DNA of 64,000 nucleotides, taken from Betaproteobacteria bacterium. Lineage in GTDB: Bacteria; Pseudomonadota; Gammaproteobacteria; Burkholderiales; UBA3065. The notes beneath the pieces are model-generated. The model saw only the letters and a list, made by a program, of their open reading frames with translations. It searched no databases and was not told the DNA's origin. Below are positions 1 through 39,178 of the stretch, in pieces. The DNA lies in assembly GCA_027490755.1 (NCBI GenBank), contig JAIXXL010000009.1, positions 1 to 64,000 of the forward strand, in the 5' to 3' direction. Position 1 is the first letter of the stretch; each line of letters opens with the position of its first letter. Made by a program: the position numbers and the translations under genes.

Positions 1-1157
1 CAAAGCCGGCAACTGGAGACCGTCCGCCGCGCCGCGAGGGCGACCGTCGCGAGCCCGGCGCCGCAAAGCCCTGGGGCGCAAAGCCGGCAACTGGAGACCG
101 TCCGCCGCGCCGCGAGGGTGACCGCCGCGAGCCCGGCGCCGCAAAGCCCTGGGGCGCAAAGCCGGCAGCTGGAGACCGTCCGCCACGCCGTGAGGGTGAC
201 CGCCGCGAGCCCGGCGCCGCAAAGCCCTGGGGCGCCACTGCTCCAGCTCGCGCCAGGCCAGACCGCGACGCACCCCAGGCCGATGCCGCGCCGCGCCGCC
301 GCCGCGAGCGTGTGGCCGGCGACTCGCCGCCACCCCGCAGCGGGCGGGTGGGCCCCGGGACTCCGCCGGTGCCCGCCGAAGCAAGTCCTCCGCAAGCCGC
401 GCCCCGCGCCGACGGCCTGGTCCGCGTCTCCAAGCTGCTCGCTGAGCAGGGCCTATGTTCGCGGCGCGAGGCCGACCAGTACATCGAGCGCGGCTGGGTG
501 TTCGCCAACGGCGAGCGGGTCACCCAGCTGGGCACGCGGGTGGTGCCGGATACCGTGCTGCGCCTCGACCGTCACGCCCGAGCGGCGCGGGTCAGGCTGG
601 CCACCGTCCTGCTCAACAAGCCGGTCGGCCACGTGTCTGGCCAGCCAGAGGACGATCACCCGCCCGCCATCGTGCTGGTCCGCCCCGAGAACCTGTGGGA
701 CGAGTCGCCGGCAGCACCCGGCAGCGACGAGCCGCGATTCGATCCGGCGCACCTGCGCGGTCTTGCGCCGGCAGGGCGCCTTGACATCGATTCCACCGGC
801 CTGCTGGTGCTGACCCAGGATGGCACCGTGGCCAGGCAGCTGATCGGCGCCGACAGCGATGTCGACAAGGAGTACCTGGTGCGGGTCGAGGGCGAGATGG
901 TGGAGGGGGGCCTCGCGCTTCTGAATCACGGTCTCGAGCTCGACGGCGTGCCGTTGCGCCCCGCGCAGGTCGAGTGGCTCAACGATGACCAGTTGCGTTT
1001 TGTGCTGCGCGAGGGGCGCAAGCGACAGATCCGCCGCATGTGCGAGATGGTCGGCCTCCGCGTCACCGGCTTGAAGCGCGTCCGCATCGGAGGCGTGATG
1101 CTGGGCGATCTGCCGATCGGCCGCTGGCGTTATCTGGGCCCCGACGAAGGGTTCTGA
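1..1157 (+). CDS. RsuA-family rRNA pseudouridine synthase (RluF-like), 5' partial
   Basis: This enzyme converts a specific uridine in rRNA, probably 23S, to pseudouridine. The frame is open from the window edge, so the start lies upstream. The first ATG-like start visible (312) would remove the repeat tail. An S4 RNA-binding domain ([18 protein letters not shown], near 420-480) precedes the catalytic domain. The catalytic Asp lies in [17 protein letters not shown] (codon 783-785), and the C-terminal [11 protein letters not shown] motif is intact. The spacing and C-terminal motifs look more like RluF than RluB, but the exact target uridine cannot be read from sequence. The N-terminal region (3-400) is low-complexity, basic and probably disordered. 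The 3' end overlaps the convergent ligase gene by 28 bp. Confidence 0.9.
3..236 (+). repeat. Three tandem 78-bp repeats inside the pseudouridine synthase tail
   Basis: Three nearly identical 78-bp units begin at 3, 81 and 159. The period is a multiple of three, so the reading frame of the downstream pseudouridine synthase stays open through all copies. Each unit encodes 26 residues rich in Arg, Pro, Gly and Glu, containing KPWGA and [17 protein letters not shown]. Copies differ by only a few bases (for example Ala for Thr in copy 3), which implies recent duplication. The array may extend left of the window. Confidence 0.9.
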
Positions 1158-2848
1158 CGGCCCTGCCCAGCTTGGCCGGCATGACCGTCGGCGAGCCGCC
1201 GCAGTGAGTCCAGCGAATCCGCGTCCGCGGCGGACTTATCGCGCCGCCAGCGCAGCATGCGCGGAAAGCGCACGGCGATTCCGGCCTTGTGCCGTCGGCT
1301 CGACTGGATGCCTTCGAAGCCGACCTCGAAGACGAGCTCCGGCATGACCTGCCGGACCGGCCCGAAGGTCTCCAGTGTGTTGCGCCGGACAAAGCGGTCA
1401 ACCTCGCGGATCTCGGCGTCACTCAAACCTGAATACGCCTTGGCAAACGGCACCAGCGCGCCCTCGTGCCACACCGCGAAGGTGTAGTCGGTGAACAGGC
1501 CCGCCCGCCTGCCGTGTCCGGCCTGCGCGTAGATCAGGACGGCATCGACGGCGTAGGGTTCGAGCTTCCATTTCCACCAGTCGCCACGCGTGCGGCCGCC
1601 GCCGTACTGTGACGCGGCTCGTTTCAGCATCAGGCCCTCGGCGCCGAGTTCGCGGGCCGATGCGCGCAGCGCGGCAAGCGTCGCCCAGTCGTCGCCAGGC
1701 AGTGTCGGCGCGGCGAGGATGCGCGGACCCTCGCCAGGCACCCTGTCGTCCCGGTCTGCGAGAAGCGCCGCCAGCGCGGCGTGGCGCTCACTCAGCGGCC
1801 TGCCGCGCCAGTCGGCGCCATCCAATTCGAGCAGATCGAAGGCGAGGAACACTGCCGGGTGCGAGGCGAGCAGGGCGCGGCCGGGTGCCTTGCGGCCGAG
1901 CCGGCGCTGTAGCGAGGCGAACGGCGCGAGGGCGACCGGGGGGCAGCAGTCGGGGGGTACCAGGGGGTTTTCTACCCGTCCGGCTGGGTCGCTAATGCCA
2001 GCGGTCGCCGCTACCAGCACCTCGCCGTCCAAAACCGTGCCCGGGGGCAGGCCGCGGGCAGCAGCCACCAGGTCGGGGAAGGCTGCATCGAGGTTCTCGT
2101 CGCCGCGCGACCACAGGTGTGCCGACTCGCGTCGCACCACCTGTCCGCGGATGCCGTCCCACTTCCACTCGGCGACCCATTCCGCAGCCGGGCCGAGCGC
2201 CTCTGGCGGTGCCTCGAGCGGGTGCGCCAGACGGAACGGGTAGGGCTGGGCGCCTGCGGGTCCATCCTCATCTGGCGAGACCAGACGCTGCCAGTGCGCT
2301 TCGTCGGGCTTCCAGTCGCCGGCCATCCGCGCCGCCAGCGCCTCGGTGGCGATGCCGGTGCAGACTGAGAGGCCGCGCAGCGCCAAGCCTCGCGAGACGC
2401 CTACCCGCAGTCCGCCGGTGAGCAGCTTGTTGAGAACAAAGGCATCCGGGCGATCCACGGACTGCCAAAGCGCTATCAGCGCCGACGACTGCGCCTCTGG
2501 CGGAAGGCCGCGCAGCGGCGTGACGCGCTGAGTGACCCAGTCATGCAGAGTAAGCCCATCGTCGCGGCCGCCCTCGGGCAGCAGCAGGGCGATGGTCTCG
2601 GCGAGGTCGCCGACCGCCTCGTAGCAATCGGCGAACAGCGCCTCGTCCAGTCCGCTGGCCTGTATCGCTGCAGACTTGAGCACGCGGGTCGGTAACGGCT
2701 GCGGCAGCCTCTCGCCACAGAGTAGCCAGAGCGCCCATGCGGCATCCGCGGCGGGCGCGACCGAGAAATACTCGGCCAGCGCGGCCTGCTTGGCCCCGCT
2801 TCGGTTGCTCGCATCCAGCGCCCGGAACAGCGCGGCGAACTGTTTCAT
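1130..2848 (-). CDS. ATP-dependent DNA ligase (exonuclease-associated type)
   Basis: A 572-residue ATP-dependent DNA ligase that seals nicks via a lysine-AMP intermediate. The nucleotidyltransferase motif I is EWKWDGIRG, with the adenylated lysine at about residue 229. An N-terminal all-alpha domain (residues 1-200) comes before it, and the OB-fold region with motif V ([23 protein letters not shown]) lies toward the C-terminus. It resembles the archaeal/eukaryotic ligase 1-like enzymes found in bacterial gene clusters with a metallo-beta-lactamase exonuclease. The start ATG overlaps the stop of the exonuclease gene by 4 bp (ATGA), so the two are almost certainly translated together. It is an accessory ligase; replication normally uses NAD-dependent LigA, which is not in this window. 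Confidence 0.93.
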
Positions 2849-3942
2849 CGGCCTTGGCCTGCTGTATCGGCCGCGGCGTCGTCTGGCGCTGCGGTCTCGG
2901 TATACGCCCCGGCTGTGGCCGCAGGCTCCTCGCTGCCATCCTCGCCGCCGTACTCGGTGCGGAGGGTGCCGGCGTCGATGCCAGCCTGCCGCAAGTGGCG
3001 CACTAGCGGCGCGGTGTGGCCGTGAGTCAGCAGGACGCGGCTGGCGCCAGTGGCTTCAACGGCCCGCAGCAGTCCGGGCCAGTCGGCATGGTCGGACAAC
3101 ACGAGCCCGGCATCCACCCCGCGACGACGGCGAGCACCACGCACGGTCATCCAGCCCGAAGCCAGCACGCGTGGCGCTGCGCCGAAGCGGCGGGCCCACG
3201 CCCCGTTCAACGCAGACGGCGGGGCGATGACCAGCTCACCTGCCCAGTCGTGGCCGCGCGGCAGCTCTGCCGCCGGCCGGGTCGGTGGCAGGGCCACCCC
3301 GCAGTCGCGGTAGACGGCTGTGAGGCGGTCCACGGCGCCGTGCAAAGCAACAGGCCCCGCGGTGTCGCCGAGTATCGCCAGCACCCGCTGCGCCTTGCCG
3401 AGAGCGTATGCGCCCAGCAGCAGGGCAGTGCCAGCAGCGGCCGCCTGCCGGCGCAGCTGAGCGAGTTCGGCTGCCACGGCCTTCGGCCCGGGCCAGCGGT
3501 AGACCGGGAGCCCGAAGGTGCACTCGGAGATGAAGGTGTGGCAACGCAGTGGCTCGAACGGCTCACAGGTCGGGTCAGGGTCGAGCTTGTAGTCGCCCGA
3601 CACCACCCAGACCTCGCCGCGGTGCTCGACGCGAACCTGCGCGCTGCCAAGCACATGTCCGGCCGGATGCAGCGACACGCGCACACCGTTGACGGTCACC
3701 GCCTCGCCGTATTCCACCGCCTCGATCCGGGCGCCCTCGGGCAGGCGGGCACGTGCAAGCGCCAGCCCCGGCCTCGCCACCAGGTAGCTGTCGCACCCCG
3801 GGCGCAGGTGGTCGGCATGCGCGTGGGTGATCACGGCCCGGGCGACGGGCCGCCATGGGTCGATCCAGAAATCGCCCGCGGGACAATAAAGCCCTTGATT
3901 TGCCGCATGGATAAGCGGACTGTGTGTGTGCTTAGTGTTCAA
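2845..3942 (-). CDS. Ligase-associated metallo-beta-lactamase DNA exonuclease
   Basis: This protein belongs to the metallo-beta-lactamase/beta-CASP exonuclease family usually encoded beside ATP-dependent ligases; the family is thought to process DNA ends before ligation. The metal-binding motif THAHADHL follows GLYCPAGDFWIDPWRPV near the N-terminus. Further metal-ligand candidates are HPAGHVLGSAQ, SGDYKLDPD and SDHADW. The frame opens from a TTG at 3969, but I prefer the TTG at 3942: AAGG lies about 10 bases before it, and the earlier start would put the operator 3955-3969 inside the gene. Either start leaves the domain intact. The last 40 residues (Glu, Thr and Ala rich) look like a disordered tail. 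The gene is divergent from the photolyase-like gene. Confidence 0.88.
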   Translation of the reverse strand: MNTKHTHSPLIHAANQGLYCPAGDFWIDPWRPVARAVITHAHADHLRPGCDSYLVARPGLALARARLPEGARIEAVEYGEAVTVNGVRVSLHPAGHVLGSAQVRVEHRGEVWVVSGDYKLDPDPTCEPFEPLRCHTFISECTFGLPVYRWPGPKAVAAELAQLRRQAAAAGTALLLGAYALGKAQRVLAILGDTAGPVALHGAVDRLTAVYRDCGVALPPTRPAAELPRGHDWAGELVIAPPSALNGAWARRFGAAPRVLASGWMTVRGARRRRGVDAGLVLSDHADWPGLLRAVEATGASRVLLTHGHTAPLVRHLRQAGIDAGTLRTEYGGEDGSEEPAATAGAYTETAAPDDAAADTAGQGR

Positions 3943-4003
3943 GACAAATAGGCCTTGGATTACGTCCAAGTGGCGTATATTCTGTCAGCTGTCCAAGACA
4001 AGT
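3937..4003. promoter_or_regulatory. Candidate operator array shared by exonuclease and photolyase-like genes
   Basis: Three copies of GTYCAAG start at 3937, 3964 and 3991, exactly 27 bp apart. The outer copies extend to GTTCAAGACAAAT and GTCCAAGACAAGT. The middle copy forms the right arm of an inverted repeat TTGGATTACGTCCAA (3955-3969). The same TTGGA-N5-TCCAA layout is present upstream of the BLUF gene at 39110-39124. Position between divergent genes and within the probable plus-strand promoter suggests binding of a regulator. The regulator is not in this window. MerR-type light-responsive regulators are one candidate class, which is inference only. Confidence 0.6.
3955..3981 (+). promoter_or_regulatory. 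Candidate promoter of the photolyase-like gene
   Basis: A -10-like TATATT (3976-3981) lies 15 bp after TTGGAT (3955-3960). The spacer is short, and the inverted repeat 3955-3969 covers the -35 and most of the spacer, so a bound protein would directly affect RNA polymerase. The transcript would carry the GTCCAAGACAAG site and the ribosome binding site GGGGGAG (4004-4010). Confidence 0.45.
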
Positions 4004-4016
4004 GGGGGAGTGCATC

Positions 4017-5318
4017 ATGCGCATGCCCGATACCGACTCACTGCGCGGCAAACGGTATCTTCGCCTGCATCAGCGTGGGCGCAACAGTTCTGCCAACGCA
4101 GAGGCCCGGGTTTTGCGCGATATCGAGTCCGAACTCGATCGCTGCAGCCCCCAGGAAGCCGGCTTTCCGCCCGCTCGCGAAGAAGCCCTGCGTCGGATCG
4201 AGGCTGTCGACAGCCGCAGCTACCGCCGGCTCCGCGACTACGCGCGCGGCCCGGTCAGCCGGCTCTCGCCCTACATCACGCATGGCCTGGTGAGCGTCCC
4301 CGAGGTGTTCGGCTCGGTGGTCGCACGCGGCGATTCCGGCCCGACCGATCGCTTCGTGCAGGAACTTGCCTGGCGCGAGTTCTTCCGCCACGTCTGGCGC
4401 CACCTGGGCGACGGCATCGGCGAGGACATCCGCGACGCTATCCCTGGGGTGGTGTACACCAGCGCCATCCCGGAAGACGTTTTGACTGCGACGACCGGCG
4501 TCCCGGTGATCGACGCTTCGGTGCGTGAACTGTACGAGACCGGCTACCTGCACAACCACCAGCGGATGTGGGTGGCCAGCTACCTGGTGCACATGCGCAA
4601 GGTTCACTGGCGCGCCGGTGCCGACTGGATGTACGGCTACCTGCTGGATGGCGACTTGCCGTCCAACCACCTGTCCTGGCAGTGGATCGCGTCGACCTTC
4701 AGCCGCCGGCCCTACCTGTTCAACGCCGACAACGTGCAGCGCTTCGCTGCTCACCTTGCCAGCCGCGGGACGGGAATCGATCGTGGCTACGAGGAACTGG
4801 GCCAGATCGCCGCCAGCAACCTGCAACTGGAGCCGGAAGACGGCCCTCGCGGCGAGCCCGTGGTCGCGCCGGGGCTGCTTGAGCTGCCGCCGGGCATGCA
4901 GGTCAGCGCCGCCAGCCCGATGGTCGCGGGCAACGAGCGCGTGGCTTGGGTACACCCTTGGACGCTGGGCGAGCGCCCGGCCGCGGACCGCGTCATCGGC
5001 GTCATCCATCTGCCGTTCCATCAGCAGTTTCCGTGGTCGGCACAGCGTTGGGACTTCGTCATCACGGCGATGCGTGCCATCAGTGACGAGATCTGGATCG
5101 GCGACCTGGGACAACTGGCAAATGAGCAGGGCACGCGTGTGATCGACGTGCAGGCCACCCTGAATCCCGGCTACCGCGAAGCGATCACCAGCCTGTCCTG
5201 CGGCGCCCGCGCGGAGCCTCGCTTGACGCCCGACCCAGACGACCTCAAGCCGTCGTTCAGCCGCTTTTGGGAACACGTGTTGGCGACGCGCTCGATCAAC
5301 TTCTCGCCGGCGGGCTGA
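4017..5318 (+). CDS. Photolyase/cryptochrome FAD-domain protein lacking the antenna domain
   Basis: A 433-residue protein containing the photolyase/cryptochrome FAD-binding alpha-helical domain. Signatures are RLSPYITHGL (about 82-91), VQELAWREFFRHVW (114-127), TGVPVIDASVRELY (160-173), GYLHNHQRMWVASYLVH (176-192) and LLDGDLPSNHLSWQWIAST (209-227). The N-terminal alpha/beta antenna domain of ordinary photolyases is missing: only about 50 residues come before the FAD-domain region. Instead there is a C-terminal segment of about 120 residues (312-433; VAWVHPWTLG, VIGVIHLPFHQQFPW) of unknown role. The start ATG 4017 has GGGGGAG 6 bases upstream. The likely role is light-driven DNA repair or blue-light sensing. 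The genomic position next to exonuclease-ligase supports repair, but the substrate cannot be stated. Confidence 0.85.
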   Translation: MRMPDTDSLRGKRYLRLHQRGRNSSANAEARVLRDIESELDRCSPQEAGFPPAREEALRRIEAVDSRSYRRLRDYARGPVSRLSPYITHGLVSVPEVFGSVVARGDSGPTDRFVQELAWREFFRHVWRHLGDGIGEDIRDAIPGVVYTSAIPEDVLTATTGVPVIDASVRELYETGYLHNHQRMWVASYLVHMRKVHWRAGADWMYGYLLDGDLPSNHLSWQWIASTFSRRPYLFNADNVQRFAAHLASRGTGIDRGYEELGQIAASNLQLEPEDGPRGEPVVAPGLLELPPGMQVSAASPMVAGNERVAWVHPWTLGERPAADRVIGVIHLPFHQQFPWSAQRWDFVITAMRAISDEIWIGDLGQLANEQGTRVIDVQATLNPGYREAITSLSCGARAEPRLTPDPDDLKPSFSRFWEHVLATRSINFSPAG

Positions 5319-38196: not shown

Positions 38197-39090
38197 TCAG
38201 CGCATGCCGCGAACCAACGCGGCGAGGGACCGGCGCAGGGCTGCATCGCCACCCGGTTGGATGTCGCCGCTGAACAATGGCCGGTCACACCCGCGCACCT
38301 CGAGCGGGCAATCGGCGAACAGGCGCGAGCCCGTCTCACCCTCAAGCAGCGTGATCATGGACGCATGGCGGGGGTCGGCAGCCATCATGCCGATGGTTCG
38401 ATCAACAGCGTCCGCACTGCCCTCGAGGTAATAGAGCAGGTTGCCGTCGTCGTGGACCAGGATGCCGGTCACGTCGTTATCCGCGTTCTGTTGCCACCAC
38501 TCATCGACCATGGGCTCCGGTGGCCCGTCAGCCGTGGCCCCGGTCAGCAGGCTGGCGCAGGCGACGTAGCGGAAGGGTCCATGGAAGGGGCGGTCAAGCG
38601 CTGCCTTCAGGGAAGCGCCAAGACGGCGTCGAGGCTCGACACGCCTCGGCCAGACGCCATCGGCGATGAAATCGGAGATCAGTCGGTCGGTCGCGTCATG
38701 GGCCTGGTCGAGGCTGGCGACCAGTGCATCAAAGCCACCACGGTCCACAGCAGGCGAGCACATGGTCCAGTCACCAAAGCGACGTTGCCCGACCAGACGC
38801 ACCAGGCTGATGCTGACATCGCGGTGGCGGGGGTCGGCCTCGATCCGGCACATCAACGCCGGGACGGATTCGACCGGCCCCTCGAGGATCTGCATGAACC
38901 AGGCACCGTCGCGGATCAGCAAACCGGTGATGTCCGCAGCCTGGTTGTTGCGCCGCGAGACGCGCAGGATCTCGTCGTCGGCTTCTTCGCCGACCAACGC
39001 GTAGCTGCTGTAGACGATCTGGACCAGGGTTCCGGCCGGCTGCTCAGCCAGATGATCCTGGTAGACGTTGATGGCCGGCGAGGTGGTCAT
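38197..39090 (-). CDS. Blue-light sensor with one intact and one degenerate BLUF domain
   Basis: A 297-residue protein. Residues 20-115 are a BLUF flavin photoreceptor domain with all key residues: Tyr27 (QIVYSS), Asn48/Asn49 (SRRNNQAADITG), Gln67 (WFMQILEG) and Trp108/Met110 (FGDWTM). Residues 172-265 repeat the same fold pattern, but the matching positions are Cys178, Asn202, Tyr220 and Cys261, so this half should not show BLUF photochemistry. It may act as an output or dimerisation module. No GGDEF, EAL or HTH domain is present. The ATG at 39090 fits the family start; an open frame extends upstream without similarity. A TTGGA-N5-TCCAA palindrome lies 20 bases upstream. Confidence 0.87.
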   Translation of the reverse strand: MTTSPAINVYQDHLAEQPAGTLVQIVYSSYALVGEEADDEILRVSRRNNQAADITGLLIRDGAWFMQILEGPVESVPALMCRIEADPRHRDVSISLVRLVGQRRFGDWTMCSPAVDRGGFDALVASLDQAHDATDRLISDFIADGVWPRRVEPRRRLGASLKAALDRPFHGPFRYVACASLLTGATADGPPEPMVDEWWQQNADNDVTGILVHDDGNLLYYLEGSADAVDRTIGMMAADPRHASMITLLEGETGSRLFADCPLEVRGCDRPLFSGDIQPGGDAALRRSLAALVRGMR

Positions 39091-39109
39091 CCGGGGGCAT
39101 CCGCTTGAT

Positions 39110-39124
39110 TTGGACAATGTCCAA
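39110..39124. promoter_or_regulatory. Candidate operator upstream of the BLUF gene
   Basis: TTGGACAATGTCCAA is a perfect inverted repeat (7-bp arms with one central base). It has the same TTGGA-N5-TCCAA layout as 3955-3969 in front of the photolyase-like gene. On the minus strand it follows a possible promoter (TTGGCA, 17-bp spacer, TAACGT), so a bound protein would sit near the transcription start. The regulator is unknown. Confidence 0.6.
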
Positions 39125-39151
39125 TACGTTAAGCGGTTTGCCGGGTAATGC

Positions 39152-39178
39152 CAAGCGCTTGTCGCGGACAAGCGCTTG
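39152..39178. repeat. Perfect 12-bp inverted repeat (hairpin) after the RDD gene
   Basis: CAAGCGCTTGTC and GACAAGCGCTTG are exact reverse complements separated by GCG. Each arm also contains the self-palindrome CAAGCGCTTG. It starts 5 bases after the RDD stop, so it may end the sigma-DUF3619-DUF3106-RDD transcript, but there is no run of T on either side. The GACAAG portion resembles the outer sites at 3941-3949 and 3995-4003, so an operator role is also possible. Confidence 0.6.

Follow-up and report, generated by a model that had tools for sequence, protein, structure and literature searches.

A candidate light regulon joining a photolyase-like gene, an exonuclease-ligase operon and a BLUF gene through paired operator-like boxes in a photosynthetic betaproteobacterium

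The photolyase-like gene phr, the exonuclease-ligase operon that diverges from it and a BLUF gene in the same 64-kb stretch of DNA (the window) probably form one regulon of a predicted CarH/LitR-type repressor, encoded elsewhere in the genome (G000:C34:117413-118357). Each of the two promoters appears to be bracketed by two TTGTCCWRGACAA-like boxes lying 54 bp, or about five helical turns, apart, with one box upstream of the putative -35 element and the other between the putative -10 element and the start codon. In the dark, the repressor with its bound cobalamin would sit on both boxes, on a single face of the DNA, and deny RNA polymerase access to the promoter between them; in the light, the cobalamin bond would be broken, releasing the protein and turning the genes on. 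Binding of the boxes by the LitR protein, the resulting repression and its control by light and B12 are proposed here by analogy with CarH and PmlR2. An earlier note on this DNA had suggested a light regulon on account of a palindrome that precedes both phr and BLUF; the regulon is largely supported by the sequence, in that the two genes share an operator grammar and a candidate regulator can be named, but the palindrome is not the shared element. For the light responses of freshwater phototrophic Betaproteobacteria, in which the literature searched describes no CarH/LitR operator, this provides a candidate regulator, a predicted operator and a list of targets.

The window covers the first 64 kb of a 254-kb contig (C41) in a genome assembly of 2.06 Mb and 49 contigs that is 79% complete. 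Four relatives from the same genus were found by similarity of their photolyases; they are metagenome assemblies, several of them titled Betaproteobacteria or Rhodocyclaceae, and the closest sits in a record titled 'Klebsiella pneumoniae isolate MsE-01oct19-120', a label that looks wrong. A reaction-centre search of four of the five genus genomes returned two PF00124 matches in each, and the genus is thus taken to be photosynthetic. The contig that holds the reaction-centre genes of the present genome also has a gene for a B12-binding protein that lacks a MerR domain and resembles AerR/PpaA (L073, G000:C48:145322).

The candidate regulator and its light sensing

The regulator had been expected to lie outside the window and to belong to the CarH/LitR class of MerR proteins, and the best candidate agrees on both counts, being encoded on contig C34 and, to judge from its domains and motifs, probably a CarH/LitR-type MerR protein; LitR-like genes are present in the sister species as well. 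An N-terminal MerR winged helix-turn-helix domain is present (MerR_1, PF13411, 2.6e-12), while the four-helix bundle and Rossmann B12 domains (B12-binding_2, PF02607, and B12-binding, PF02310) score just over their curated cut-offs. The closest solved structure is that of CarH (5C8D, 6.9e-28). The Wx9EH motif, which caps the adenosyl group and is part of the motifs that define CarH homologues (PMC8156234), is present as WARGAINVAHEH, and W-x9-EH is found in 29 of 30 homologues. Of the second motif, ExHx2Gx41SxV/Tx22-27GG, the translated protein has ExHxxG and GG at the right spacing, with SxS replacing SxV/T.

The histidine adjacent to the motif tryptophan, which becomes the upper cobalt ligand after light in Thermus thermophilus CarH and lies outside the published signature (PMC8156234), is an alanine in the candidate regulator and is a histidine in none of the 29 homologues that have the motif. 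The regulator also scores 126.7 bits against the NCBIfam CarH equivalog (NF052513), for which the cut-off is 400. Because the domains, Wx9EH and ExHxxG are kept while the equivalog cut-off is not reached and the histidine is missing, the protein can be called CarH-like, but not said to work exactly like CarH. Clear predictions about repression and light sensing in this CarH-like branch follow from the spacing of the two boxes and from the lack of the bis-His residue.

It is conceivable, though unlikely, that the same boxes serve the same MerR-type repressor while light is sensed by something other than its own cobalamin, much as BluF acts on BluR or a short-LOV protein on PmlR2, in which case the boxed BLUF gene would represent feedback. 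The replacement of the CarH light-state histidine in all homologues read is consistent with such an arrangement, as are the boxes at the BLUF gene here and at a different BLUF gene in genome G001, and anti-repression of a LitR-class protein by a LOV protein has been published (PMC9758184). The retention of Wx9EH and ExHxxG from the B12 signature argues however that cobalamin still binds, and the BLUF protein, whose best match in a sister species is only 40% identical, is not conserved in the genus and so cannot be a general partner. Sensing through the repressor's own cobalamin is the reading preferred here.

Paired boxes at the phr and BLUF promoters

Table 1. Features of the phr and BLUF loci in the window (PWM, box matrix; promoter hexamers assigned by eye).
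Feature	Position	Strand	Evidence and remarks
ATP-dependent DNA ligase	1130..2848	-	TIGR04120, 9.4e-176
Ligase-associated DNA damage response exonuclease	2845..3942	-	TIGR04122, 1.3e-137; start codon uncertain
Left phr box, GTGTTCAAGACAA	3935..3947	+	At start of divergent exonuclease gene; PWM 13.8 bits, window rank 4; core invariant in five species
Palindrome at phr, TTGGATTACGTCCAA	3955..3969	+	TTGGAT (3955-3960) read as -35, plus right arm; by eye
Putative phr -10, TATTCT	3978..3983	+	Conserved TANNCT-like hexamer; by eye
Right phr box, CTGTCCAAGACAA	3989..4001	+	54 bp from left box; PWM 19.0 bits, window rank 1; core conserved in five species
Photolyase-like gene phr	4017..5318	+	PF03441, 1.1e-28
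BLUF protein, BLUF plus degenerate second BLUF domain	38197..39090	-	PF04940, 1.3e-38, two stretches
Downstream BLUF box, TTGTCCAAATCAA on -, TTGATTTGGACAA on +	39105..39117	-	PWM 17.6 bits, window rank 2; extended box with 1 mismatch
Palindrome at BLUF, TTGGACAATGTCCAA	39110..39124	-	Overlaps downstream box and adds a further GTCCA half-site
Putative BLUF -10, TAACGT	39126..39131	-	By eye; no match in promoter scanner
Putative BLUF -35, TTGGCA	39149..39154	-	By eye
Upstream BLUF box, TTGTCCGCGACAA	39159..39171	-	54 bp from other box; PWM 13.2 bits, window rank 6; matches pair pattern

The photolyase-like protein, in which the FAD-binding domain is the only one detected by Pfam, is shared with four sister species at 82-84% identity over the main match. 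An alignment of the phr promoter from the five species contains invariant columns in four blocks, namely GTTCARGACAAA, TGGA.T, the -10 region and TGTC.A..AC. In all five, TTGGAN (CTGGAA in G002) stands 17 nt from a TANNCT-like hexamer, which makes a -35 element the most plausible reading of the palindrome's left arm; the promoter scanner reported no sigma-70 promoter above its threshold at either phr or BLUF. The conserved elements at phr that do not belong to the promoter itself are the two 13-bp boxes, which are 52-54 bp apart in the five species. Since the left box is situated where the exonuclease gene starts, repressor bound in this way would also shut off the exonuclease-ligase operon, and the earlier suggestion that this pair of genes belongs to the regulon is in large part supported by the sequence.

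The BLUF protein (297 aa) is a tandem of a BLUF domain and a pseudo-BLUF domain, LLYYLEG in the second standing where the first has FMQILEG; that the second domain is degenerate was read from the sequence and from the number of Pfam stretches. No box is present in the promoters of the genome's four other BLUF genes. Two BLUF genes from different species (L005 and L025) share a conserved upstream stretch, CAGGCTGATAGATTTCTT...AAGAAAGTTATC, that is unrelated to the box. Between the boxed BLUF gene and an RDD-family gene upstream is an inverted repeat with a perfect stem, CAAGCGCTTGTC-CGC-GACAAGCGCTTG, at 39152-39178; it contains the box at 39159 and could also be the transcript end of the RDD-family gene.

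A box matrix trained on 33 litR-promoter sites, none of them from the genus, places the phr and BLUF boxes first, second, fourth and sixth in the window. The third and fifth positions are taken by 30772 (17.1 bits), which is inside an RrnaAD gene (rRNA dimethylase, rsmA/ksgA-type) and is regarded as a chance match, and by 29476 (13.3 bits). Among all box pairs at spacings of 30-89, the phr pair (32.8 bits) is first and the BLUF pair (30.8 bits) second, ahead of a third pair at 20.1 bits, a maximum of 23.8 in 100 dinucleotide shuffles and 14.6 with the reversed matrix. The phr score is only partly independent, as the consensus of the training sites was first noticed at phr in the genus; the BLUF gene of this genome played no part in choosing them.

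It is also possible, but somewhat less likely than light sensing by a partner protein, that phr alone is truly regulated and that the BLUF boxes are a coincidence, made up of a chance near-match and a by-product of the terminator-like inverted repeat. The box at 39159 does lie within that larger repeat, and the BLUF promoter has no orthologue that could be footprinted. However, the BLUF pair scores above all 100 shuffles at the very spacing seen at phr, and the 22-bp stretch TTGATTTGGACAATGTCCAATA from the BLUF promoter agrees with the litR operator of G004 in 18 of its 22 positions; the extended-box search, moreover, gave no control match. BLUF is accordingly kept with phr as a predicted target.

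The box across genomes

The TTGTCCWRGACAA box recurs in the promoters of CarH/LitR-type genes (MerR plus B12 domains) in many Burkholderiales families. In the upstream regions of 30 homologues, two boxes separated by 62-64 bp surround the -10 element in the litR promoters of about ten families outside the genus. Boxes 52-54 or 62-64 bp apart are separated by roughly five or six turns of the helix, a hint that they are bound on one face of the DNA and possibly bridged. The litR promoter of the present genome has one box with two mismatches, and no second box is seen there, whereas a full box is found at litR in G004. Boxes at both a photolyase gene and the regulator's own gene, as would mark a LitR-type regulon, are thus found at phr in five species and in litR promoters in many families. 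Boxes resembling TTGTCYWRGACAA also occur before a BLUF gene of G001 and, in G006, which belongs to another family, close to the SDR-phr genes and the LitR-like gene. Photolyase relatives outside the genus and the BLUF/phr loci of other families mostly have no box near the gene; the exceptions are a BLUF gene and the SDR-phr stretch of G006. No structured leader was found by Rfam in the boxed loci searched, and literature searches yielded no paper on the box sequence.

When the five genus genomes are scanned for two boxes 54 bp apart with at most three mismatches, the only matches are phr (G000 and G002) and BLUF (G000), against none for the control; the pattern had been loosened to admit the phr and BLUF promoters and so measures specificity rather than discovery. 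The extended box TTGTYYWRGACAAWGTCCA, allowed at most two mismatches, gives 15 matches in the same genomes and none for the control. Those at light and regulator genes are BLUF (G000), litR (G000 and G004) and phr (G002). The others are a histone-deacetylase-domain gene in two species (with a single-box counterpart in G000), a DUF2946-TonB receptor pair in three, soxYZ with a phosphoesterase gene in two, a conserved gene of about 93 aa with no Pfam match in three, and one site near other kinds of genes in G002.

Several of these loci have features of their own. At the DUF2946 locus (L283, G000:C34:110912; L284; L285), the extended box overlaps the start codon of the small DUF2946 gene, the TonB receptor gene follows, and in all three species a gene for a B12-dependent methionine synthase activation domain adjoins. 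The box lies about 200-260 bp upstream of the histone-deacetylase-domain (AcuC-like) gene in three species (L259, L282, L287), and no Rfam family was found in this gap. The gene of about 93 aa that stands behind a box (L276, L277, L280) is divergent from a BLUF gene in one species and from a WYL regulator gene in another, while the sox box is located between soxYZ and the metallophosphoesterase gene in two species (L288, L290). There are also one-mismatch intergenic boxes at L260 (G000:C48:276803) and L255 (G000:C19:133503), one of which is upstream of an rpoS-like sigma factor gene and the other between CheV-like and sensor-kinase-like genes, as named from their sequences only.

Exact boxes were counted in the present genome and 100 relatives from the order, 43 of which have CarH/LitR-like homologues or partial matches; a genome was taken as LitR-bearing at E below 1e-40. 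The 30 LitR-bearing genomes contain 21 exact boxes against 5 for the control, and the 71 genomes without LitR contain 10 against 30. The association of box and LitR has p = 1e-5, or 6e-4 when boxes in litR promoters are left out and 3.5e-4 when the genus is. At two mismatches genome-wide, the box is at background (46 against 65 for the control). Co-occurrence of this kind cannot tell a regulator from a target, and the boxes might instead be operators of some other regulator that controls litR too, LitR being a target and not the binder. This seems quite improbable, given that the boxes track the presence of LitR across genomes, that many families have them at litR itself, as is usual for an autoregulated gene, and that their half-sites fit the published CarH form TnnACA (PMC9304148). 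LitR thus remains the predicted binder of the boxes.

The two TTGGA-N5-TCCAA palindromes of the earlier note are real and lie about 35 kb apart. They are the sole such sites in the window, against 0.03 expected and with two in none of 100 shuffles, and by Pfam both precede genes for flavin-based light proteins, a photolyase-like protein with a FAD_binding_7 domain and a BLUF protein. They are not equivalent sites, however: the one at BLUF overlaps a predicted operator box, while the one at phr consists of the putative -35 element and a right arm, TCCAA, that is kept in three of the five species and lost in two. Nor does a genome scan tie the motif to light genes beyond phr and BLUF, the genome having three sites (against one for the reversed control pattern), the third of them flanked by an argD-like and a CBS-domain gene; in sister species G002 there is no such site anywhere, yet its phr promoter has the conserved boxes. 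As a regulon motif TTGGA-N5-TCCAA was rejected on these grounds, and the element common to both promoters is the 13-bp box, present twice at a 54-bp interval. That the palindromes are themselves the operator is very improbable, for although both are present and rare, and the BLUF palindrome amounts to two inverted TGGACA half-sites, the phr palindrome, besides its -35 arm and unconserved right arm, scores -15 with the box matrix and is therefore not a box, and G002 does without any. A palindrome picked out by eye can evidently lead to a real regulon even if, at one of its two sites, it is not the right element.

A broader proposal is put forward more tentatively, and is perhaps somewhat more apt to fail than to hold. 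There may be a Burkholderiales-wide CarH-like clade with an operator grammar of its own, in which paired inverted-repeat boxes five or six turns apart bracket the promoter and suggest bridging or looping, and with its own photochemistry or partner, as the absence of the bis-His residue would indicate. In photosynthetic freshwater members, such a regulator could unite in a single light regulon the photolyase, the exonuclease-ligase pair, the tandem BLUF protein, the deacetylase-like enzyme and genes of sulfur oxidation.

Comparison with known systems

The nearest known counterpart is CarH, the adenosylcobalamin-dependent light repressor of Thermus thermophilus, Bacillus megaterium and Myxococcus xanthus, which has the same combination of MerR, B12-binding_2 and B12-binding domains together with Wx9EH and ExHxxG. 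CarH binds an operator over the promoter and lets go of it in the light (PMC8156234, PMC9304148); the predicted operators here likewise overlap promoter elements and have half-sites of the TnnACA type. The CarH operators known so far, at carotenoid genes, consist of 11-bp direct repeats in tandem, nnnnTnnACAn (PMC9304148). In contrast, the boxes described here are inverted repeats that occur at phr, BLUF and litR in pairs separated by 54 or 62-64 bp; tandem 11-bp repeats of the CarH kind are absent from phr and BLUF, where the half-sites are inverted, and an 11-bp TTGTC repeat is seen, by eye only, before the right box of several litR promoters in other families. A further difference is that proteins of the present group have other residues where CarH has its light-state ligand (PMC8156234), the histidine next to the tryptophan.

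Class II LitR proteins of Pseudomonas (PplR1 and PmlR2) repress photolyase and other light genes, and PmlR2 has one site over the -35 element and another that follows the transcription start but precedes the start codon (PMC9758184). This two-site layout around the promoter resembles that of the boxes here. The class II site, TGTACA-N12-TGTACA, is nonetheless different from the box, and class II proteins keep a single B12 subdomain, with PmlR2 under a short-LOV protein, both of which are unlike the present system.

A likeness to the BluR-BluF pair of Escherichia coli can also be drawn, in that the response to light involves both a MerR-family repressor and a BLUF protein. E. coli BluF has an EAL-type output domain and relieves BluR. 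That pair is mentioned alongside the LitR proteins of Pseudomonas (PMC9758184), and the arrangement proposed here differs from it in that the BLUF gene is a predicted target, encoding a protein with a degenerate second BLUF domain.
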